Source of the DNA: Pedosphaera parvula Ellin514
Lineage (GTDB): Bacteria > Verrucomicrobiota > Verrucomicrobiia > Limisphaerales > Pedosphaeraceae
Assembly: GCF_000172555.1 (NCBI RefSeq)
Contig: NZ_ABOX02000013.1
Location: 62,001-126,000 of the forward strand
Direction of reading: 5' to 3'
DNA length: 64,000 bases
Positions 501 to 53,085 of this stretch are shown one piece after another (within the stretch, counting starts at the first letter, position 1; every line of letters begins with the position of its first letter). The position numbers were made by a program, and so were the translations under genes. The notes below the pieces were generated by a model that saw only the letters and a list, made by a program, of their open reading frames with translations, was not told the origin of the DNA and ran no database searches.

Positions 501-796
501 GCCTATGACACATGGTTCGCGGCCGATTTGAAAATAGTCGGCGGTTTCCTGCCCATTGGTCCGCGCACACAGCTCGGACCTCCAATGCCGTGGCCATTCG
601 AGGAGGCGTAGGAAGGATTGCAATTGGTGGCAATACGAGGGGCTTGACCCCTTTCGTTTCATCCCGACCACTTGACTGCGATGGTTAGAACTCATAGGGT
701 TGAACCGCTAATGAAAGAAGGGAGTAATTCCCAGTTGGTCGACCATTATCAATTTGGCAGGAATTATTTCCCACCGGTTAAATAGTTACGCTGCTT
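501..796. other. Intergenic stretch without a gene; REP-like palindrome at 639-651
   Basis: No convincing reading frame is present; overlapping frames on the minus strand are antisense to the preceding gene. A short inverted repeat GGGG-CTTGA-CCCC lies at 639-651. It resembles GGG-ATCTGA-CCC at 2723-2734 inside the cassette-like array; both look like remnants of REP palindromes linked to IS200-type transposases. GTTAAAT at 777-783 fits the integron R' box GTTRRRY, 13 bases before the next start codon. I could not find a convincing partner R'' box, so an attC site here is only possible. Confidence 0.4.
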
Positions 797-1120
797 ATGA
801 TCGCTCTCGAAGTCAGAAAGAATGGCAAACGGGTCTGCATCGCTGGCGCGGAAGATTTGGCCGTGTTGAGCACGAACATCGCCGCCGTCGGCAAGCTCGG
901 AAAGAAGACCGTTCCGGCTCGGCCAGACGAAACCACAGGTGAGATTCATTACTCTGTTGGCGGTCTCACCTCGCGGCCTGACCCAGACAAGGACGTTCAT
1001 GTGAGATGGAAGTCTGTCGCCCCTCTCAAAGTCGGAGACGTTATTGAGGTCAGGATATTGGAAACAGAGAAAGTTGACCGTGCAACATCCCGAACCAAGG
1101 CAAAAAGAAAGCGGACCTAA
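797..1120 (+). CDS. Small conserved-looking protein of unknown function (first cassette-like gene)
   Basis: The product is 107 residues, soluble, with no signal peptide or membrane segment. It begins 'MIALEVRKNGKRVCIAG', has a central 'HVRWKSVAPLKVGDVIEVRILE' beta-strand pattern and ends in a Lys/Arg-rich tail. I do not recognise a named family. Its stop codon lies inside the R'' box of the attC-like site that follows (1115-1121), which is a common arrangement in integron cassettes. It is the first member of a run of short, co-directional unknown genes. An alternative frame starting at 754 is judged a shadow. Confidence 0.6.
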   Translation: MIALEVRKNGKRVCIAGAEDLAVLSTNIAAVGKLGKKTVPARPDETTGEIHYSVGGLTSRPDPDKDVHVRWKSVAPLKVGDVIEVRILETEKVDRATSRTKAKRKRT

Positions 1121-1172
1121 CCATGCCCGTAGCGCACGGGGGCAGGCCGTTGCGGAGCTTGGGTTGTCAGGC
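1115..1172 (+). repeat. attC-like site B
   Basis: The left box ACCTAAC (1115-1121) is an exact R'' match (RYYYAAC) and continues CATGCCCG. The right side reads GGAGCTTGGG and then GTCAGGC (1166-1172), an R' box with one change from GTTAGGC. The two boxes pair at five positions, and the other two pairs become G-T wobbles on the bottom strand. The next ATG is 12 bases later. Confidence 0.5.
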
Positions 1173-1735: not shown

Positions 1736-1798
1736 ACCTAATTCTAGCGGGCCATCGCGGTTGCTATCGGCGCCCGTCCTGAGCTTGGGGCATTAGGC
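1736..1798 (+). repeat. attC-like site C
   Basis: The left box ACCTAAT (1736-1742) and right box ATTAGGC (1792-1798) are complementary at six of seven positions. The usual AAC/GTT core has become AAT/ATT on both sides, which looks like a compensated change. The internal arm reads CCTGAGCTTGGGGC. The next gene starts 10 bases after the right box. Confidence 0.6.
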
Positions 1799-2055: not shown

Positions 2056-2147
2056 GCCCAACCATGCGCCGCAGCGAACGGCGGCATCACGTCGAGGTTG
2101 CAATCGGCACGACCTGTGGCCACCGTCGCTGAGCTATGGCATTAGGT
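2056..2147 (+). repeat. attC-like site D (best-defined)
   Basis: The left box GCCCAAC (2056-2062) is an exact RYYYAAC match; the right box is ATTAGGT (2141-2147). The arms CCAT..CAGCGA..CGG and CCGTCGCTGAGCTATGG are complementary except for extra unpaired bases in the left arm, as expected for attC. C-A mismatches on the top strand become G-T wobbles on the bottom strand, the strand that integron integrases recombine. Confidence 0.65.
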
Positions 2148-3171: not shown

Positions 3172-3561
3172 ATGACTGTCCGTTCCGCTATCATCAACAT
3201 CGTAATGATTGTGGGATTGCTCAGTTCCTTGGTTGGCTGCACGAAAAAGCTCGACCCCGACGAGACTGTTATCATCCAGCTTCGGAAGGCGGGCTCGGAT
3301 CTTTCCAAGCCGCACACCATTGATTTCTACCTCTATTTTCCCAGCGAGTCTGCGGCGGAAGAGGCCGCGACGCGCATGAGACTGACCGGCTACACGGTTG
3401 AGGTCAAGCGAGCAGCCAAGGGTGATCATTGGCTTTGCTTGGGGACGAAGCAGGTGATTCCTGAGCTGTCCACGATTCAGGCGATTACGCGCGATCTCGA
3501 CGGCCTGGCCAAGTCTTTGCATGGTGATTACGATGGATGGGAAGCGAAGGTTGAGAAGTGA
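3172..3561 (+). CDS. Lipoprotein with an RraB-like domain
   Basis: The product is 129 residues. It has a lipoprotein signal at 1-23 ending in 'SSLVGC' and then a domain resembling RraB (regulator of RNase E activity B): 'FYLYFPSESAAEEAATRMRLTGYTVEV', a central 'HWLCLG' strand, and a final 'LAKSLHGDYDGWEAKV' that is close to the RraB C-terminal signature. Known RraB is cytoplasmic and binds RNase E; a membrane-anchored, exported copy could not do that, so the fold has probably been reused. It is the first of two genes in one cassette-like unit, with no attC-like site before the next gene. Confidence 0.6.
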   Translation: MTVRSAIINIVMIVGLLSSLVGCTKKLDPDETVIIQLRKAGSDLSKPHTIDFYLYFPSESAAEEAATRMRLTGYTVEVKRAAKGDHWLCLGTKQVIPELSTIQAITRDLDGLAKSLHGDYDGWEAKVEK

Positions 3562-4967: not shown

Positions 4968-5045
4968 TACTAACCATGCGCTACAGCGACCCCGGCATTC
5001 GTTCAGGAAATCCTTTTCGACATTCAATATAAGCATTCGCTAGGC
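4968..5045 (+). repeat. attC-like site I (last of the array)
   Basis: The left side is TACTAAC (4968-4974), continuing CATGCGCTACAGCGAC, which is the common 'AACCATGCG' arm also seen at 2060 and 44322. The right side is GCTAGGC (5039-5045), one change from GTTAGGC. The DNA beyond is AT-rich and cassette structure stops here, so this is taken as the end of the array. Confidence 0.45.
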
Positions 5046-40115: not shown

Positions 40116-40664
40116 GAAATTTTCTCTCTTTATCGCGATCCTAATATTAATCCTTAACGTTTCCTTTATGCAAAGCTAAAGAACCGCCCAAACGGCTCTC
40201 ATAATTCGCATCAAATTTTATTTTTGAACTGTCGTTAACTGCCCTTGATCGCCATTTCCCGTCCGAATCCTGGCGCAAACTCCGCGCCCTTCGGGATACC
40301 CAACTGCTCCAACCCCTTTCACCCCCATCTTCCTCCCGATCCCAGTCTCTTTTTGTACTCTCATCCTCCCACTTTACCGAACTCCTTGGACACAGACTGT
40401 CCAGCCGTATAAGTCCGGATGCGATTGGCAAGCGTCTCCCAAGGCAATCTGCACTAAAGGCTTGCAAGGGTACCGTCGCCCAAATTCCTAAACCACCAAA
40501 AATAGTTTTACCTCTCCCGTCAGGAGCCTTTCAAAAGCATGGCTCCTCATATGTTTCTCACAACCTTCGTCATTGACGTTCTTCCTGACTGTGGTCATCC
40601 TCCGGTCGCTTTTAAGTAGTTGTCGAGTAACGAACTGCATACTGGAGGTAACCCAAGCCGCCGA
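40116..40664. other. Divergent intergenic region, no gene seen
   Basis: About 550 bases lie between coaC (minus) and the Kelch gene (plus). A minus-strand frame at 40147-40467 (Arg/Ser-rich, no domain, no ribosome-binding site) is not accepted. Promoters for both flanking genes must lie here, but I cannot point to clear boxes. GGAGG at 40642-40646 is a possible but distant ribosome-binding site for the Kelch gene. Confidence 0.35.
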
Positions 40665-43382
40665 ATGAACACTCAAATCAAATCCACGCTCACTCTTCAA
40701 CCCTTTCTAGCATTGGCTGCGCTGGTGCTGAGTTGGGCGGTTATTCCTGCGGCCCAGGCTGCTTCGTGGTCAACCAACAGCCTAATGAACAGTGCCCACA
40801 ATTGGCATACCGCCACCCTCCTGCCCAACGGCAAGGTGTTAGTTGCTGGCGGTTCTACCAACTACGGGATCGGATATGACCCTACCGGCGTCGCCGAACT
40901 GTTTGATCCCGCCACCGGATTGTGGACTGCCACAAGTTCAATGATTCATGCGCGCGAATTGCACACCGCTACCTTGCTGCCCAGCGGCAAGGTGCTCGTG
41001 GCAGGTGGCTCCATCAACACCCCGCCTTATGAGTTTTCCAGTGCTGAGCTTTTTGATCCAGCCACCGGGACGTGGTCGCCGACCAGTTCCATGAATTTCA
41101 CACACGACGGTCACACGGCCACTTTGCTGCTGGACGGCCGGGTGCTCATCGCCGCAGGCTACGGTGACACTGGGAGTTTTACTGACGCGGAGCTTTATGA
41201 ACCCTCCAACCAAACATGGACAGCCACCGGCAAGCTCCACGTCCCACGTCAGGTGCATTCTGCGACGCTGCTGGCCAATGGCAAGGTGCTGGTTGCAGGA
41301 GGCACGGATCCGCAAGGAATTCCCATTGCCGACGTGGAACTGTATGATCCAGCCACCGGAGCATGGACACTCGGCAACCCATTAACCCTCCCACGAGCTG
41401 ATTTCACTGCTACATTGCTCCCGGATGGCAAGGTGCTGGTTGCGGGTGGTTACGATAGCGACGGGTACACCACCAGCGCGGAATTATACGATCCTGTCAG
41501 TGGTGCATGGACATTGACCGCGCCCATGAATGCGGCCCGTTTAAGTCACACAGCCAATCTATTGCCCAATGGCAAAGTTCTCATCAGCGGGGGCGATATC
41601 TGGTCTCCTTCGACGTCGGAATTATACGACCCGGTAACGCAGTCATGGACAAACTCGGCCACTTTAAGCATGCGACGTTTTGATCATTCCGCAACTTTGC
41701 TCGCCAACGGCCAGGTGCTGGTGGCAGGAGGTCACTATGATCTCGGAGACTTTTTGTCCAGTTCCGAGGTTTATGATCCTGCCGCTGATCCGGCGACCGG
41801 CTCATGGACGAACACCAGTCCCCTGAGCGTCGATCGGGAATATCACACAGCAACCTTGCTCCCCAGTGGAAATGTGCTCGTTGCCGGCGGGTGGAGTGAC
41901 TATGGCATCCCACTCGCAAACGTGGATGTATACAATCCGGCTTCCAGGACATGGACTGCAACCCAGCCGTTCAATACCGCCCGCTTGAGCCATACTGCCA
42001 CTCTATTGCCGAACGGCAATGTGCTCGTGTCCGGCGGCATCGATAACTCATACAGCGGAGTTGCGAGCACTGAGTTATTTGATGCGGCCAGCGAGACATG
42101 GACGAACTCAGGCTCCCTGAATGCAGAACGCTGGACTCACACCGCGACTCTCCTCCCCAATGGGTTGGTGCTTGTTGCCGGAGGCGCCAACGGCACCAAC
42201 TTTCTTTCCAGCGCCGAGCTCTACAATCCATCCACTGGAGTCTGGACTCTGACAGGGGCGCTCAACATTGGTCGGCAGATTCACACCGCAACCTTATTGA
42301 AAAATGGGCAAGTGCTGGTGGCAGGTGGCTATGTGGGAGGATATTCTCTTTCCAGCGCGGAGCTATATAATCCGGCGACCGCGGCATGGATTTTGACCGG
42401 CAACTTGAACGTCTCACGCCATTCACATACTGCGACTTTGCTGCCGAACGGGAAGGTTTTGATTTTCGGAGGGTTGCATGACAATACTTCCCTTTCCAGT
42501 GCGGAATTGTATGACCCAACCACGGGCAAATGGACCCTGACCGGTTCGCTGGGCACAGGCCGACACGAGCACTGTGCCACCCTGCTGCCTAACGGGAAGG
42601 TAATTGCCTCCGGAGGCTTGGACCAGGACAAGAACCCCCTTTCCAGTGCCGAGCTATACGATCCAGCAACCGGAATCTGGCTGCCAACAGGCGGGCTGGA
42701 CACGCCGCTTGCTTCTCACACCGCCACTCTCTTGCTCGACGGCAAGTTGCTGGTTACAGGTGGACTAAGTTTATCCAACAGCCTTCTTGTGAACGCGGCT
42801 CTGTACGATGTCGGGTTGGGCTTCTCCAACTCCTGGCAACCGCAAATTGCCTCGATCACATCCAACCTCAATTTGGGAGGCACTCTCGCCCTCACTGGTT
42901 CCGGGTTTCGCGGCATTTCAGAAGGTTCAGGTGGCAATGGTTCTCAAGCTTCGGCGGGCGATCATCCTCTCGTACAACTGCGGAGCATCGAAAGCGGGCA
43001 ATCCACCTTCCTGCTGACCACGAACTGGTCGACGAATATTTTCAATTCTGCGCCAGTATATGGTTTCCCTCCGGGCTATGCGCTGGTCACGGTCTTCGTC
43101 AACGGCATTCCCGGCACCAGCAGCGTTGTGAACGTCAGCGTGCCAGTCCCCGTCGCGACGAGGCTGACCTGCGCCCAGCAAGGGACCAATGGCTTCCAGT
43201 TCACTTTCACCAACACGGTAGGAGCATTCTTCGGCGTGCTGACCACCACCGACCCCGCGCTGCCATTGACCAATTGGGCGACGTTTGGCGGCGTGACCGA
43301 AGTTTCACCCGGCCATTTCCAATTCACGGATGCGCAGGCGACGAACAGTCCGCAACGCTTTTACCGCTTGCGCTCACCCTAA
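40665..43382 (+). CDS. Secreted Kelch-repeat protein (14 repeats) with Ig-like and C-terminal domain
   Basis: The start at 40665 ('MNTQIKSTL') gives a signal peptide cleaved near 'PAAQA-ASW' and 905 residues. Fourteen Kelch-type repeats of ~48 residues follow (unit 'HTATLLPNGKVLVAGG...SAELYDPATGTWT'), from ~45 to ~720, enough for two beta-propellers. An Ig/IPT-like domain comes at ~720-830 ('SITSNLNLGGTLALTGSGF'). The last ~70 residues form the domain ending 'QATNSPQRFYRLRSP', shared with the protein at 1-500. The repeats point to carbohydrate or protein binding on the cell surface. An upstream in-frame start at 40620 is less likely because the signal peptide would be extended. Confidence 0.88.
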   Translation: MNTQIKSTLTLQPFLALAALVLSWAVIPAAQAASWSTNSLMNSAHNWHTATLLPNGKVLVAGGSTNYGIGYDPTGVAELFDPATGLWTATSSMIHARELHTATLLPSGKVLVAGGSINTPPYEFSSAELFDPATGTWSPTSSMNFTHDGHTATLLLDGRVLIAAGYGDTGSFTDAELYEPSNQTWTATGKLHVPRQVHSATLLANGKVLVAGGTDPQGIPIADVELYDPATGAWTLGNPLTLPRADFTATLLPDGKVLVAGGYDSDGYTTSAELYDPVSGAWTLTAPMNAARLSHTANLLPNGKVLISGGDIWSPSTSELYDPVTQSWTNSATLSMRRFDHSATLLANGQVLVAGGHYDLGDFLSSSEVYDPAADPATGSWTNTSPLSVDREYHTATLLPSGNVLVAGGWSDYGIPLANVDVYNPASRTWTATQPFNTARLSHTATLLPNGNVLVSGGIDNSYSGVASTELFDAASETWTNSGSLNAERWTHTATLLPNGLVLVAGGANGTNFLSSAELYNPSTGVWTLTGALNIGRQIHTATLLKNGQVLVAGGYVGGYSLSSAELYNPATAAWILTGNLNVSRHSHTATLLPNGKVLIFGGLHDNTSLSSAELYDPTTGKWTLTGSLGTGRHEHCATLLPNGKVIASGGLDQDKNPLSSAELYDPATGIWLPTGGLDTPLASHTATLLLDGKLLVTGGLSLSNSLLVNAALYDVGLGFSNSWQPQIASITSNLNLGGTLALTGSGFRGISEGSGGNGSQASAGDHPLVQLRSIESGQSTFLLTTNWSTNIFNSAPVYGFPPGYALVTVFVNGIPGTSSVVNVSVPVPVATRLTCAQQGTNGFQFTFTNTVGAFFGVLTTTDPALPLTNWATFGGVTEVSPGHFQFTDAQATNSPQRFYRLRSP

Positions 43383-43840
43383 CCCGGGCGGTATCCAATA
43401 CCTCGAACCTTTTTCGTGCCACCGCATATTCTCGCTAACCAACGCGATCAATCTAGGCACGCGTAAATTCCATCGCCTGGAGCAACCTTGATTTTCGCTG
43501 ATACCGAATACCCGATTGAAAAGCTGTGAAGGCTAATCCCTTCATTCAGGTTTGCACAGCAAGAGCCCCCGGAGCGCCGGTTTCCAAACCGGCTTACGAT
43601 GAAGCATCCACGAAAATCTCCATTTCCACCACTCCTGCAATCCCACGCCTTCCTGGTTCGTGGCTGTAAGTCGCATCGGATTGGGAACGGCTGGGGAGGA
43701 TTTTGCTTTGAAATACGACGGCTGGTTCGGATATTAGAAGCCGGTGTCGTTGATAATAAACCACTACCGATTGTCGCAAACCGTTAAATTAAACGGTTCA
43801 ATATACGAACCAGAGGTTACATATCAAATAGTCAGACGGC
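43383..43840. other. Intergenic stretch with a perfect 18-bp palindrome
   Basis: No supportable gene. GCCGGTTT-CC-AAACCGGC at 43575-43592 is a perfect palindrome and may act as a terminator-like hairpin or REP element; there is no T-run. A second, looser inverted repeat AACCGTT...AACGGTT lies around 43780-43800. The stretch ends at the R'-like box of the cassette-like gene. Confidence 0.45.
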
Positions 43841-44324
43841 GTTAGGTCACCACACCATGAGACTCAAAATTGATCTTCCGACAACTTGGTCACAGCAGAA
43901 GAGCCCGAACGGCCCTGCGACCTTCTGTCGCGAGGCCAGCACGAACGCGTTTCAGGTTTCTTGGGCCGAGTATCGCGGCGGGAAGCCACTGCCGGAAATC
44001 ACGGCTGACAGTTTGAAGCAGATGGCGACCAACTTCGGACGAAAGAACGGGTTTGGGCAGATGGCTAAGCCATCCGGTGGCGCTTGTAGATTCGGCAGCT
44101 TCGGGACGGCAGTCTTTAGTTCCGTAGAGCACCCCCGTATTCAGATATGGTTTATCAGCGACGGTCGCGAGCACATCATGGCCACGCACATTTGCGTCAG
44201 CGAGCCAGAGTCGAGCGAGGTCGCCGAGGTGGAGCAGATTGCGAGTAGTCTGGAACTTGGCCCTGAACAGCCAGCAAAACCGAAGTGGAAGTTTTGGTGA
44301 TTGAGTATGACCATGCCGTCTAAC
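43841..44324 (+). mobile_element. Isolated gene cassette-like unit bounded by integron-type boxes
   Basis: GTTAGGT at 43841-43847 matches the R' consensus GTTRRRY exactly and is followed after 9 bases ('CACCACACC') by an ATG. After the gene, GTCTAAC at 44318-44324 matches the R'' consensus RYYYAAC exactly and continues CATGCG, the arm shared with sites at 2063 and 4975. A full downstream site was not found, so this may be a decayed single cassette far from the main array. Confidence 0.45.
43857..44300 (+). CDS. Small protein of unknown function in a cassette-like unit
   Basis: The product is 147 residues, soluble, without signal peptide. It begins 'MRLKIDLPTTWSQQKSPNGPATFCR' and has 'GGACRFGSFGTAVFSS', 'IQIWFISDGREHIMATHI' and an acidic helix 'EPESSEVAEVEQIASSLEL' before a 'KPKWKFW' tail. 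The alternation of strands and a final helix resembles small immunity or DUF-type proteins, but I do not recognise the family. Integron-type boxes on both sides are the reason for linking it to the array at 1.1-5.0 kb. Confidence 0.6.
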   Translation: MRLKIDLPTTWSQQKSPNGPATFCREASTNAFQVSWAEYRGGKPLPEITADSLKQMATNFGRKNGFGQMAKPSGGACRFGSFGTAVFSSVEHPRIQIWFISDGREHIMATHICVSEPESSEVAEVEQIASSLELGPEQPAKPKWKFW

Positions 44325-44408
44325 CATGCGTCCTTCGAACGCGACCCTTACCCGCCGCGGAATCTTAACGGTTTCAACTTTTTCCACACCTTCCTTAGAC
44401 GATGCCTT

Positions 44409-51080: not shown

Positions 51081-51259
51081 AGGGATTGACCTCCACGCAT
51101 ATGCTGATTTGACCGACACTAATCTCGCTTCCTGATATGTCAATCCCGTTCGGTCCAACTTACTGAATCCTTCTTGTTGCGCTGAGATCGACTACAGTTG
51201 ACATCTTCACCCGTTCTTTTCAGTATCAAGCTCATGAGCAAAGCCAGGGCCAGCCAGAA

Positions 51260-52174
51260 ATGAAACACCGCAAGCGCACTTTCCTTGCGCTGCCATGCCT
51301 GCTCCTGCTCGGCGGCCTCGCCTGGCAGGTGCTGCGACCACGCGAACCGGTCTATCAGGGCAAAACCTTGACCCAATGGCTCAGGCAGGGGATTGGTAGT
51401 ACAAACGCTGAAGATGAAAAACTAATTGTCAAGGCGGTCACAATTATTGGCACCAACGCGCTTCCCGTTCTCCTCCAAAAAATCCAGGCCACCGATTCTC
51501 CTCTCAAATTAAAATTCATTTCCCTGATCGAAAGGCAGTCGTTCGTTGAAATCAAATTCACAAAAGCATGGGAGTCAAAGTCCGAAGCCACCGAAGGCTT
51601 TTGCATTCTCGGCCCCAGCGCAAAACCCGCTGTGCCCAAATTGACTGAGTTGCTTCAGTACGACGACTCCGGCTATGTGGCGATGTCATTGGCGGGAATC
51701 GGTATTGATGGTGTCCCGCCTCTTGTCCAGGCATTGACCAACAGTAACTTAGGCGTGAAATACAGAGCACTTGATGCTTTGAAAGGAATGGGACTTGTCC
51801 GCTTCATCGACAACTGGCCGCCTGACAGATTGGCCATTATCCCCGAAGTCGCTAAAATTGCCGTTCCGCCTCTTTTGGAATGTTTGGAGAGCAAGGATCA
51901 GTTCACTCGTGCCAGAGCCGCCAAGACACTCGGTGCATTAGGTTGTGAGCCGGATCTCGTAGTCCCTGCTTTAATAAACCAACTCAAGGAAGCGAACTAC
52001 AACCCACGAGTCGCAGTTCCTGCGTTGCAGGCGCTGGCTATGTTAGGTCCCAGAGCAAAAGCCGCGGTACCCGTCCTTCTGCAAGCTCTCAACGACCCTG
52101 CATTTCTCGCTCATTCAGAAGTTACCAATGCTCTCAAAAAAATCGACCCCGCCGCCGCGGCCCGCATAAAATGA
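51260..52174 (+). CDS. Membrane-anchored HEAT-repeat-like protein, copy 1
   Basis: The product is 304 residues. An N-terminal membrane anchor (~8-24, 'LALPCLLLLGGLAWQVL') is followed by a short linker 'REPVYQGKTLTQWLRQGI' and HEAT/PBS-like helical repeats ('GTNALPVLLQKI', 'KPAVPKLTELLQYDDSGYVAMSLAGIG', 'RAAKTLGALGCEPDLVVPALINQL'). Such repeats bind proteins. A tandem paralogue starts at its stop codon (ATGA overlap), and their N-terminal halves are almost identical in DNA. Confidence 0.85.
   Translation: MKHRKRTFLALPCLLLLGGLAWQVLRPREPVYQGKTLTQWLRQGIGSTNAEDEKLIVKAVTIIGTNALPVLLQKIQATDSPLKLKFISLIERQSFVEIKFTKAWESKSEATEGFCILGPSAKPAVPKLTELLQYDDSGYVAMSLAGIGIDGVPPLVQALTNSNLGVKYRALDALKGMGLVRFIDNWPPDRLAIIPEVAKIAVPPLLECLESKDQFTRARAAKTLGALGCEPDLVVPALINQLKEANYNPRVAVPALQALAMLGPRAKAAVPVLLQALNDPAFLAHSEVTNALKKIDPAAAARIK
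51302..51540 (+). repeat. 239-bp near-identical block, copy 1
   Basis: This block matches 52213-52451 with a single difference (T at 51502 against C at 52413), offset by exactly 911 bases. It covers codons of the anchor and first repeats of both HEAT-like genes. The flanking sequence of the genes is much more divergent, suggesting gene conversion. Confidence 0.9.
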
Positions 52175-53085
52175 AACACCCCAGGCGCATCCTCCTCATC
52201 CTGCTATCATTCCTCCTGCTCGGCGGCCTCGCCTGGCAGGTGCTGCGACCACGCGAACCGGTCTATCAGGGCAAAACCTTGACCCAATGGCTCAGGCAGG
52301 GGATTGGTAGTACAAACGCTGAAGATGAAAAACTAATTGTCAAGGCGGTCACAATTATTGGCACCAACGCGCTTCCCGTTCTCCTCCAAAAAATCCAGGC
52401 CACCGATTCTCCCCTCAAATTAAAATTCATTTCCCTGATCGAAAGGCAGTCACTTATCCAGCTCGACTTACCAACTGCATACGAGTCAAGATGCGAGGCC
52501 TTCGGGGGATTTTTCATACTTGGCCCACTGGCAAATCCGGCTGTTCCTAAATTGGCTGAACTGCTCCCATACGACGACGACTCCGGGTTTGTCGCATTTT
52601 CGCTGGCAGGAATAGGTCTGGATGGTGCCCTGCCTCTGGTTCAGGCATTAACCAACAGCAACCCGGGTGTTAAACACAACGCGCTTGAGGCCTTTGGGCT
52701 GATGCGATCTCTCTATTCCGGCACAAACTATGCGCCTGACAGATTGGCCGCGATTCCCGAAGTGGGTAAAATTGCAGTTCGTCCTCTTTTGGAATGTTTG
52801 GAGAGTAAGGATCGCCTCGCACGCGGCGAAGCCGCTCGCGCGCTCGGCTCATTAGGTTGTGAGCCAGACCAGGTAGTGCCTGCCTTAATACACCAACTCA
52901 AGGGAACGAACTACAGCTCACGACCCGCCCTTGAGGCTCTGGGCATGTTTGGCCCCAAAGCAAAAGCTGCCGTGCCAGCTCTTTTGGAAGCTCTCAATGG
53001 TCCTACTTTCGGCGATCGCTCAGAACTCACCAATACTCTCAAAAAAATCGACCCCGCCGCCGCAGCTCGGGCCGGGGTAAAATGA
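52171..53085 (+). CDS. Membrane-anchored HEAT-repeat-like protein, copy 2
   Basis: The product is also 304 residues, with the same layout as copy 1: anchor 'ILLSFLLLGGLAWQVL', the same linker, and HEAT-like repeats. The first ~95 residues match copy 1 almost exactly, while the rest is clearly diverged ('PTAYESRCEAFGGFFILGPLANPAVPKLAELL', 'NPGVKHNALEAFGLMRSLYSG'). Start overlaps the stop of copy 1 by ATGA, so translation is probably coupled. Confidence 0.85.
   Translation: MKHPRRILLILLSFLLLGGLAWQVLRPREPVYQGKTLTQWLRQGIGSTNAEDEKLIVKAVTIIGTNALPVLLQKIQATDSPLKLKFISLIERQSLIQLDLPTAYESRCEAFGGFFILGPLANPAVPKLAELLPYDDDSGFVAFSLAGIGLDGALPLVQALTNSNPGVKHNALEAFGLMRSLYSGTNYAPDRLAAIPEVGKIAVRPLLECLESKDRLARGEAARALGSLGCEPDQVVPALIHQLKGTNYSSRPALEALGMFGPKAKAAVPALLEALNGPTFGDRSELTNTLKKIDPAAAARAGVK
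52213..52451 (+). repeat. 239-bp near-identical block, copy 2
   Basis: Partner of the block at 51302-51540, one mismatch in 239 bases. Confidence 0.9.

Follow-up and report, generated by a model that had tools for sequence, protein, structure and literature searches.

A single gene cassette behind a dispersed attI-like repeat in Pedosphaera parvula Ellin514

The window, by which we mean the whole stretch of 64,000 nucleotides of Pedosphaera parvula Ellin514 that was analysed, carries an array of gene cassettes (the main array) and, apart from it, a single cassette with one short gene (Table 1). An earlier note on this DNA had proposed such an isolated cassette, and in this it was right. The cassette lies immediately behind a repeat that is dispersed in the genome, and its attC site is reduced to an R'' box and the six nucleotides CATGCG. 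Directly upstream of the locus is a gene for a protein of 920 aa with ~14 kelch-type repeats (40620-43382), and the interval between this gene and the dispersed repeat holds a short palindromic REP-like intergenic repeat (43549-43631) of which the genome has many copies.

Table 1. Features of the cassette locus and of the main array in the window
Feature	Position	Strand	Remarks
attI-like site, type C, heading the main array	707..785	+	crossover 785^786; similarity upstream of intact intI
degenerate attC, main array	1115..1172	+	R1 15.6 bits, E 0.073
degenerate attC, main array	1736..1798	+	R1 19 bits, E 0.0071
complete attC, main array	2056..2147	+	R1 88.6 bits; one of the nine R1 training sequences
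attC 5' arm, right end of main array	4968..4997	+	21/30 positions of the 5' arm consensus
attI-like docking repeat, type B	43663..43831	+	crossover 43831/43832; BLAST copies in own genome
gene cassette, corrected limits	43832..44330	+	leader, ORF and remaining attC 5' piece; based on the similarity block with L146
GTTAGGT, formerly taken as R'	43841..43847	+	leader sequence, not crossover; GTTTTTT in L146
cassette gene	43857..44300	+	147 aa; no family in Pfam, NCBIfam, PHROGs or PADLOC
attC remnant, R'' box and CATGCG	44318..44330	+	13-mer RYYYAACNATGCG; 3' arm missing

Besides the family collections named in Table 1, plasmid records also gave no match to the cassette protein. A search of 40 related genomes, that of Ellin514 included, did not find the gene in the other 39, so that its conservation in all relatives, which the earlier note had named as the observation that would tell against an insertion, was not seen. 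A scan of GTDB species genomes returned 15 matching stretches, one of which encodes a relative. This only homologue found, L146, comes from the metagenome-assembled genome RYN_621 (Verrucomicrobiales) and is 78% identical across all 147 residues. Judged by the substitutions that separate the two, the gene is under purifying selection (dN 0.106, dS 1.42, dN/dS 0.075 over 147 codons, with dS near saturation). The structure prediction for the protein is poor, with a mean pLDDT of 51.4 from a two-sequence alignment.

The homologue sits in another row of cassettes, and the same gene is thus found as a cassette in a second context. The L146 gene is, by reading, the third in a row of short genes. An attC site stands directly before it (24 bits, E 5.4e-4 with the attC model described below), a second attC in the interval between genes 1 and 2 is visible by eye and was missed by the model, and an unrelated chromosomal gene follows the cassette gene. 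Around the hydrolase gene downstream of the locus in the window, by comparison, 12-14 kb stretches of genomes G001, G002 and G005 have nothing else conserved, and the neighbourhood is not syntenic.

The limits of the cassette are set by its alignment with L146. At the DNA level the similarity forms one block, 43834-44321, in which 383 of 492 positions are identical and which can be followed by eye from 43832. It begins with TCAGACGGCG in the window and TTAGTCGGCG in L146 (TCAGAC/TTAGTC) and ends inside the R'' box. Its onset coincides with the point where similarity to the dispersed repeat stops, the repeat ending at 43831 and the homology starting at 43832-43834. The cassette therefore starts at 43832 (AAATAG^TCAGAC), and its left edge lies at a crossover of the attI/attC kind. 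The earlier note had drawn the interval as 43841-44324, with the gene flanked by two exact boxes, GTTAGGT as R' and GTCTAAC as R''. Both boxes and the reading frame between them are present, GTCTAAC at 44318-44324 being followed by CATGCG at 44325-44330, but GTTAGGT is not an edge of the cassette: homology begins further upstream, and the aligned bases of L146 read GTTTTTT, which makes GTTAGGT a chance match in an unconserved leader. The interval is corrected to 43832..~44330. Such 7-mers prove nothing by themselves, as each is expected by chance 2.3-2.4 times in any 64 kb; the window holds four copies of GTTAGGT (2.3 expected) and one of GTCTAAC (2.4 expected). The string TCAGACGGC (43832-43840) was considered as the scar of a deleted earlier cassette and rejected, because L146 shows it to be the start of the present one.

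At the right end a piece of an attC site is left. The 13-mer RYYYAACNATGCG begins 17 nt past the stop codon and has two exact matches in the window, here and at 2056 in the main array, against 0.2 expected per 64 kb in a Markov control; the earlier observation that the two places share the CATGCG arm is thereby borne out. Beyond these 13 nt the arm agrees with the consensus of the attC 5' arm at background level (15 of 30 positions, ungapped). No 3' arm was found: within the next 230 nt the best match to it has 12 of 24 positions, against a mean of 12.2 in shuffled sequence, and the attC model, run downstream with its filters off, gave a best match of 2.8 bits (E 1.8). CTTAGAC (~44395) was tried as the right arm and discarded, since the model scores 44318-44400 at 0.7 bits (E 7.2). 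The 3' end of the cassette thus consists of R'' and 6 nt in place of an attC hairpin. As the 3' arm is lost, excision should be blocked, and the cassette is probably locked in place for want of it. Cassettes with a truncated attC are a described kind, in the account of PMC12901181.

The attC sites were represented by a covariance model, R1, trained on nine complete attC of the Ellin514 genome itself. These nine form a covarying hairpin, with 93.1% of the cells paired. Both sides are changed in nine of the 20 pairs, a count reached by 8 of 500 shuffles, whereas the pairing percentage and the covariation score were reached by none of the 500, and sliding the hairpin partners by 1-3 columns brings the pairing down to 20-50%. 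R1 recognizes at least 24 places in the genome on 8 contigs (E<=1e-3; best 150 of 1644 candidates scored), nine of which are its training sequences, in agreement with the earlier suggestion that cassettes are scattered over the chromosome. Within the window, only the site at 2056 is a good and complete attC. Where the main array ends on the right, a 5' arm begins at 4968; neither a 3' arm nor a complete attC was recognized there. Eight main-array ORFs were compared with Pfam, and the sole clear match is that of the ORF at 3172-3561 to RraB (regulator of ribonuclease activity B, PF06877; E 1.2e-23). Elsewhere in the genome, another cluster of attC, accompanied by an attI-like site, lies at C34:58000-74223 (L177), and single attC matches lie on C9:60700 (L178) and C56:29863 (L179).

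The repeat to the left of the cassette is one of three kinds of attI-like sequence, for which the labels types A, B and C were coined in this analysis. It belongs to type B, which BLAST finds at five other places of the Ellin514 genome (two on contig C2, the others on C46, C1 and C35) with 71-86% identity; across 245 genomes of the order, BLAST gave outside the Ellin514 genome only pieces of 27/31 bp (G085/G102). The copies elsewhere in the genome end in a ATATTAATNG-like string, followed by TTRRRY and then by a different short ORF each time, and type B copies of this genome hold inverted repeats GGTTCGTATATT...AATATACGAACC. Type A comprises 16 BLAST places, partial ones counted, on C15, C22, C10, C36, C55 and C66. 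Type C comprises the head of the main array and a copy on C53, a match on C20 (25 bp, E 0.0066) being left out of the count. The cassette is accordingly not simply a remnant of the main array, the other origin that the earlier note had offered, as that array has an attI-like site of its own and of a different type.

All three types are read as attI docking sites, since related repeats adjoin intI fragments or an intact intI. On C15 and C22, the opposite strand of type A copies holds pieces of the 5' part of an integron integrase gene. A type A site in G005 directly abuts a 5' intI fragment (E 9e-5), as does a type B-like site in G085 (E 1e-14). For type C, window positions 707-763 are similar to sequence upstream of an intact intI in two genomes, G208 (L055; 79% identity over 57 bp, 72-128 nt upstream) and G049 (L042; 78% over 55 bp, 95-149 nt upstream), the distances being counted from the onset of similarity to intI. 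Beside the type B copy of the window no intI piece was found, nor was any intI trace found beside the copies on C2, C46 and C35; at the C1 locus there is just a C-terminal recombinase piece ~6 kb off. C15 and C22 (L025-L028) have many 5' intI pieces beside attI-like sites in one region, and two truncated modules on C15 are contained in a 326-bp duplication (96% identity).

The similarity between copies falls away at the junction. Ten type A copies, compared ungapped in 10-nt bins, are 66, 85, 89, 92, 93 and 83% alike from -60 to -1, 60% alike at 0..+9, the bin that holds TTRRRY, and 23-28% alike from +10. Five type B copies, taken without that of the window, are 81% alike at -10..-1 and 45% in the two preceding bins, with 21-28% further up, where the copies differ in gaps; past the junction they are 56% alike at 0..+9 and 22-33% beyond. 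The crossover is followed by TT at 17 of 18 sites of the Ellin514 genome and at 25 of 26 sites of G001, a genome of the same genus, and is preceded by G at 17 of 18 and 21 of 26, respectively; the G001 junctions were located with patterns derived from those same sequences. An end of the form G^TTRRRY with different cassettes after it, as expected of attI, is thus found across both sets of sites. In the window the junction has C as the second base after the crossover (G^TC, not G^TT). A promoter within attI would explain why copies are kept, a suggestion with slight support: the mean best promoter match is 7.8/12, barely above the 7.1/12 of shuffled sequences, a match of >=9 occurs at 4 of 44 sites, and a search at the junction in the window found none on the + strand.

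A profile built from the attI-like sites, R2, recognizes at least 19 sites on 12 contigs of the Ellin514 genome (E<=1e-3; best 150 of 2872 candidates scored). Sixteen of the 19 trained the profile, the new ones being those on C55, C1:203376 and C34; the copy in the window was among the training set, so that its match is not independent. The profile gives weaker scores to the two type C sites (E 0.0015 and 0.0385) and does not match L042 (G049) or L055 (G208). With stricter filters and at E<=1e-4, R2 has matches in six of the 245 genomes of the order, namely that of Ellin514 (17), G001 (14), G005 (4) and G007, G081 and G043 (one each). Ten stretches of G001 yielded 27 matches at E<=1, of which 26 were kept; the one left out of the counts (L160:1362-1390) is partial, has no junction end and lies 26 nt upstream of a kept site. 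Some of the G001 copies are 400-2600 bp apart, and runs of them are found on L163 (at 318, 1098, 1518 and 2038) and L166 (at 5832, 6973, 7840 and 8479). In these two stretches (L163:1-2600 and L166:5500-9251) the four attI-like sites of each run are spaced ~400-1200 bp apart with a different short ORF after each, and some of the sites come after an attC 5' half, so that the arrays are punctuated by attI, not attC. The genomes are drafts, and contigs may adjoin.

A CTAAC-type attC start precedes 11 of the 26 G001 sites, with no 3' arm visible, and the tandem type B sites preceded in this way may be long attC sites and not attI. Against this, G001 sites that stand behind chromosomal genes argue for attI, as does the G085 site beside its intI fragment.

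No intact intI was found in the Ellin514 genome, and with it no complete integron: all 12 TIGR02249 matches fall below the 265-bit cut-off. As the genome is 95.9% complete, an intact gene could be missing from the assembly. The best matches, on C34 (85 bits) and C28 (75 bits), were rejected as IntI and taken for XerC/D from their sequence; weaker ones lie on C91 and C1, and the C15 intI piece that was tested scores 49 bits. In the order as a whole, 79 of 245 genomes have a TIGR02249 match over the cut-off. None of the six R2-positive genomes is among the 83 listed with TIGR02249 at E<=1e-60, and G085 combines a weaker attI-like site with an intact intI.

The explanation that we consider very likely is that the locus is an integron cassette docked at an attI-like site by site-specific recombination, the site being one of ~20 dispersed in a genome in which no intact integrase was found. 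In favour of this are the copies of the repeat that share one junction and then continue into different ORFs, the cassette homologue that begins where the repeat ends, the covarying hairpin formed by the genome's own attC, and the absence of a TIGR02249 match over the cut-off from this genome when 79 of 245 genomes of the order have one. Docking is weakened by the G^TC of the window junction, by an attC that is down to 13 nt, by the failure to find an intI piece beside the window copy or an empty site, and by the single homologue known for the gene. The dependence of the R2 match in the window on its own training, the failure of R2 at L042 and L055 and a promoter signal barely above shuffles weaken it further. 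The earlier idea of an insertion at a scattered place thus stands as regards the single cassette but not as regards the place, which is behind an attI-like repeat and is not arbitrary.

The junction and the missing arm were observed; which enzyme acted, and in what order the steps came, we infer. An IntI that has since disappeared, or that acts in trans, would have linked a circular cassette to the repeat at G^TT, and the G^TC of the window would be this G^TT altered later. Loss of the attC 3' arm afterwards would have fixed the cassette in place. The gene may have been kept as useful, perhaps transcribed from a promoter that the attI module contains, a step that is weakly supported.

A little short of an even chance is given to decay in place, in which each attI-like copy would be the relic of a separate full integron that lost its intI where it stands, with no spreading of the site. 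The 5' intI fragments beside the type A copies on C15 and C22, and those at the type A site of G005 and the type B site of G085, are in keeping with such relics. The copies of the window, C2, C46 and C35, without any intI trace, and that of C1, with just its C-terminal piece, are not, and the 26 copies in the fetched stretches of G001, some of them closely spaced, also speak against it; furthermore, the duplication on C15 points to the copying of modules that were already truncated. It is improbable that IntI placed the cassette at an arbitrary secondary site of the attG kind, without attI. PMC8618304 gives such insertion among the proposed origins of cassette clusters that lack an integrase, but the flank is here a repeat with five other places in the genome, at least four of which have a like junction and a different gene. 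That a MITE- or REP-like repeat lies by chance upstream of an ordinary chromosomal gene, with no integron involved, is very improbable, because the inverted repeats of the type B copies and the adjoining short repeat with its many copies, which would suit it, are set against one fixed junction followed by different short genes, several with attC nearby, against a relative of the gene in a cassette row with attC before it, and against related sites that abut intI fragments.

Docking at a dispersed site leads on to a broader proposal, which we make tentatively: attI itself may be mobile and may have multiplied in the genus. Truncated modules, some fused to attC 5' halves, would then travel with cassettes and give rise to attI-cassette arrays and to scattered stations of one cassette. 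If this is true, many places on the chromosome could be loaded by a single integrase, lost by now or acting in trans, and every gene captured would have a docking site, and perhaps also a promoter, to itself, with no shared promoter at the head of an array.

The usual description of an integron has a single integrase, a single attI and a single array. This picture is broken by two genomes of the same genus that have ~20+ attI-like copies each and in which no intact integrase was found. Such genomes make it possible to ask, in a natural setting, whether attI spreads and functions when it has no intI of its own, and their many attI variants are natural material for recombination assays.

Clusters of attC that lack an integrase occur commonly (PMC9024848, PMC8618304), and so do intI pseudogenes, which make up more than a third of integrase genes in the account of PMC2426708. 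A CALIN is a cluster of at least two attC without intI, by the default of IntegronFinder 2 (PMC9024848). The locus resembles CALINs and single-attC elements in that cassettes are dispersed without a nearby intI, but it has no complete attC and is not a CALIN; CALINs are defined by attC, whereas here an attI-like module heads each site. As no complete attC is present, an attC search misses the locus. Surveys based on attC or intI overlook some cassettes, the one in the window having neither beside it.

In class 1 and class 2 integrons, a short stretch of attI, of 14-18 nt in the case of attI1, is known to stand in for the attC of some cassettes, as described in PMC12901181, which cites one case of replacement by a complete attI1 and gives a crossover between the L box of attI and the R'' of attC as the proposed origin of these delta-attI-type cassettes. 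The likeness to the present sites is an attI sequence in the place of attC, from gene to gene. As that source presents them, however, the delta-attI-type cassettes are single replacements, mostly of 14-18 nt of attI1, in mobile integrons that have an integrase, whereas the modules described here are ~50-300 bp long and number ~20+ per genome on many contigs, with no intact integrase found. The sedentary chromosomal integron with a decayed intI is similar in its chromosomal arrays and intI pieces, but there the rule is one attI beside one intI, as stated in PMC9024848, and here there are many attI-like copies, most without an adjoining intI piece. The single replacement of attC by attI is thus known; in the literature searched, no title or abstract among the matches listed describes attI dispersed over a whole genome.

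Elsewhere in the window, the stretch 51243-53069 is a tandem duplication with a period of ~911 bp, the pieces of which are 76-92% identical.
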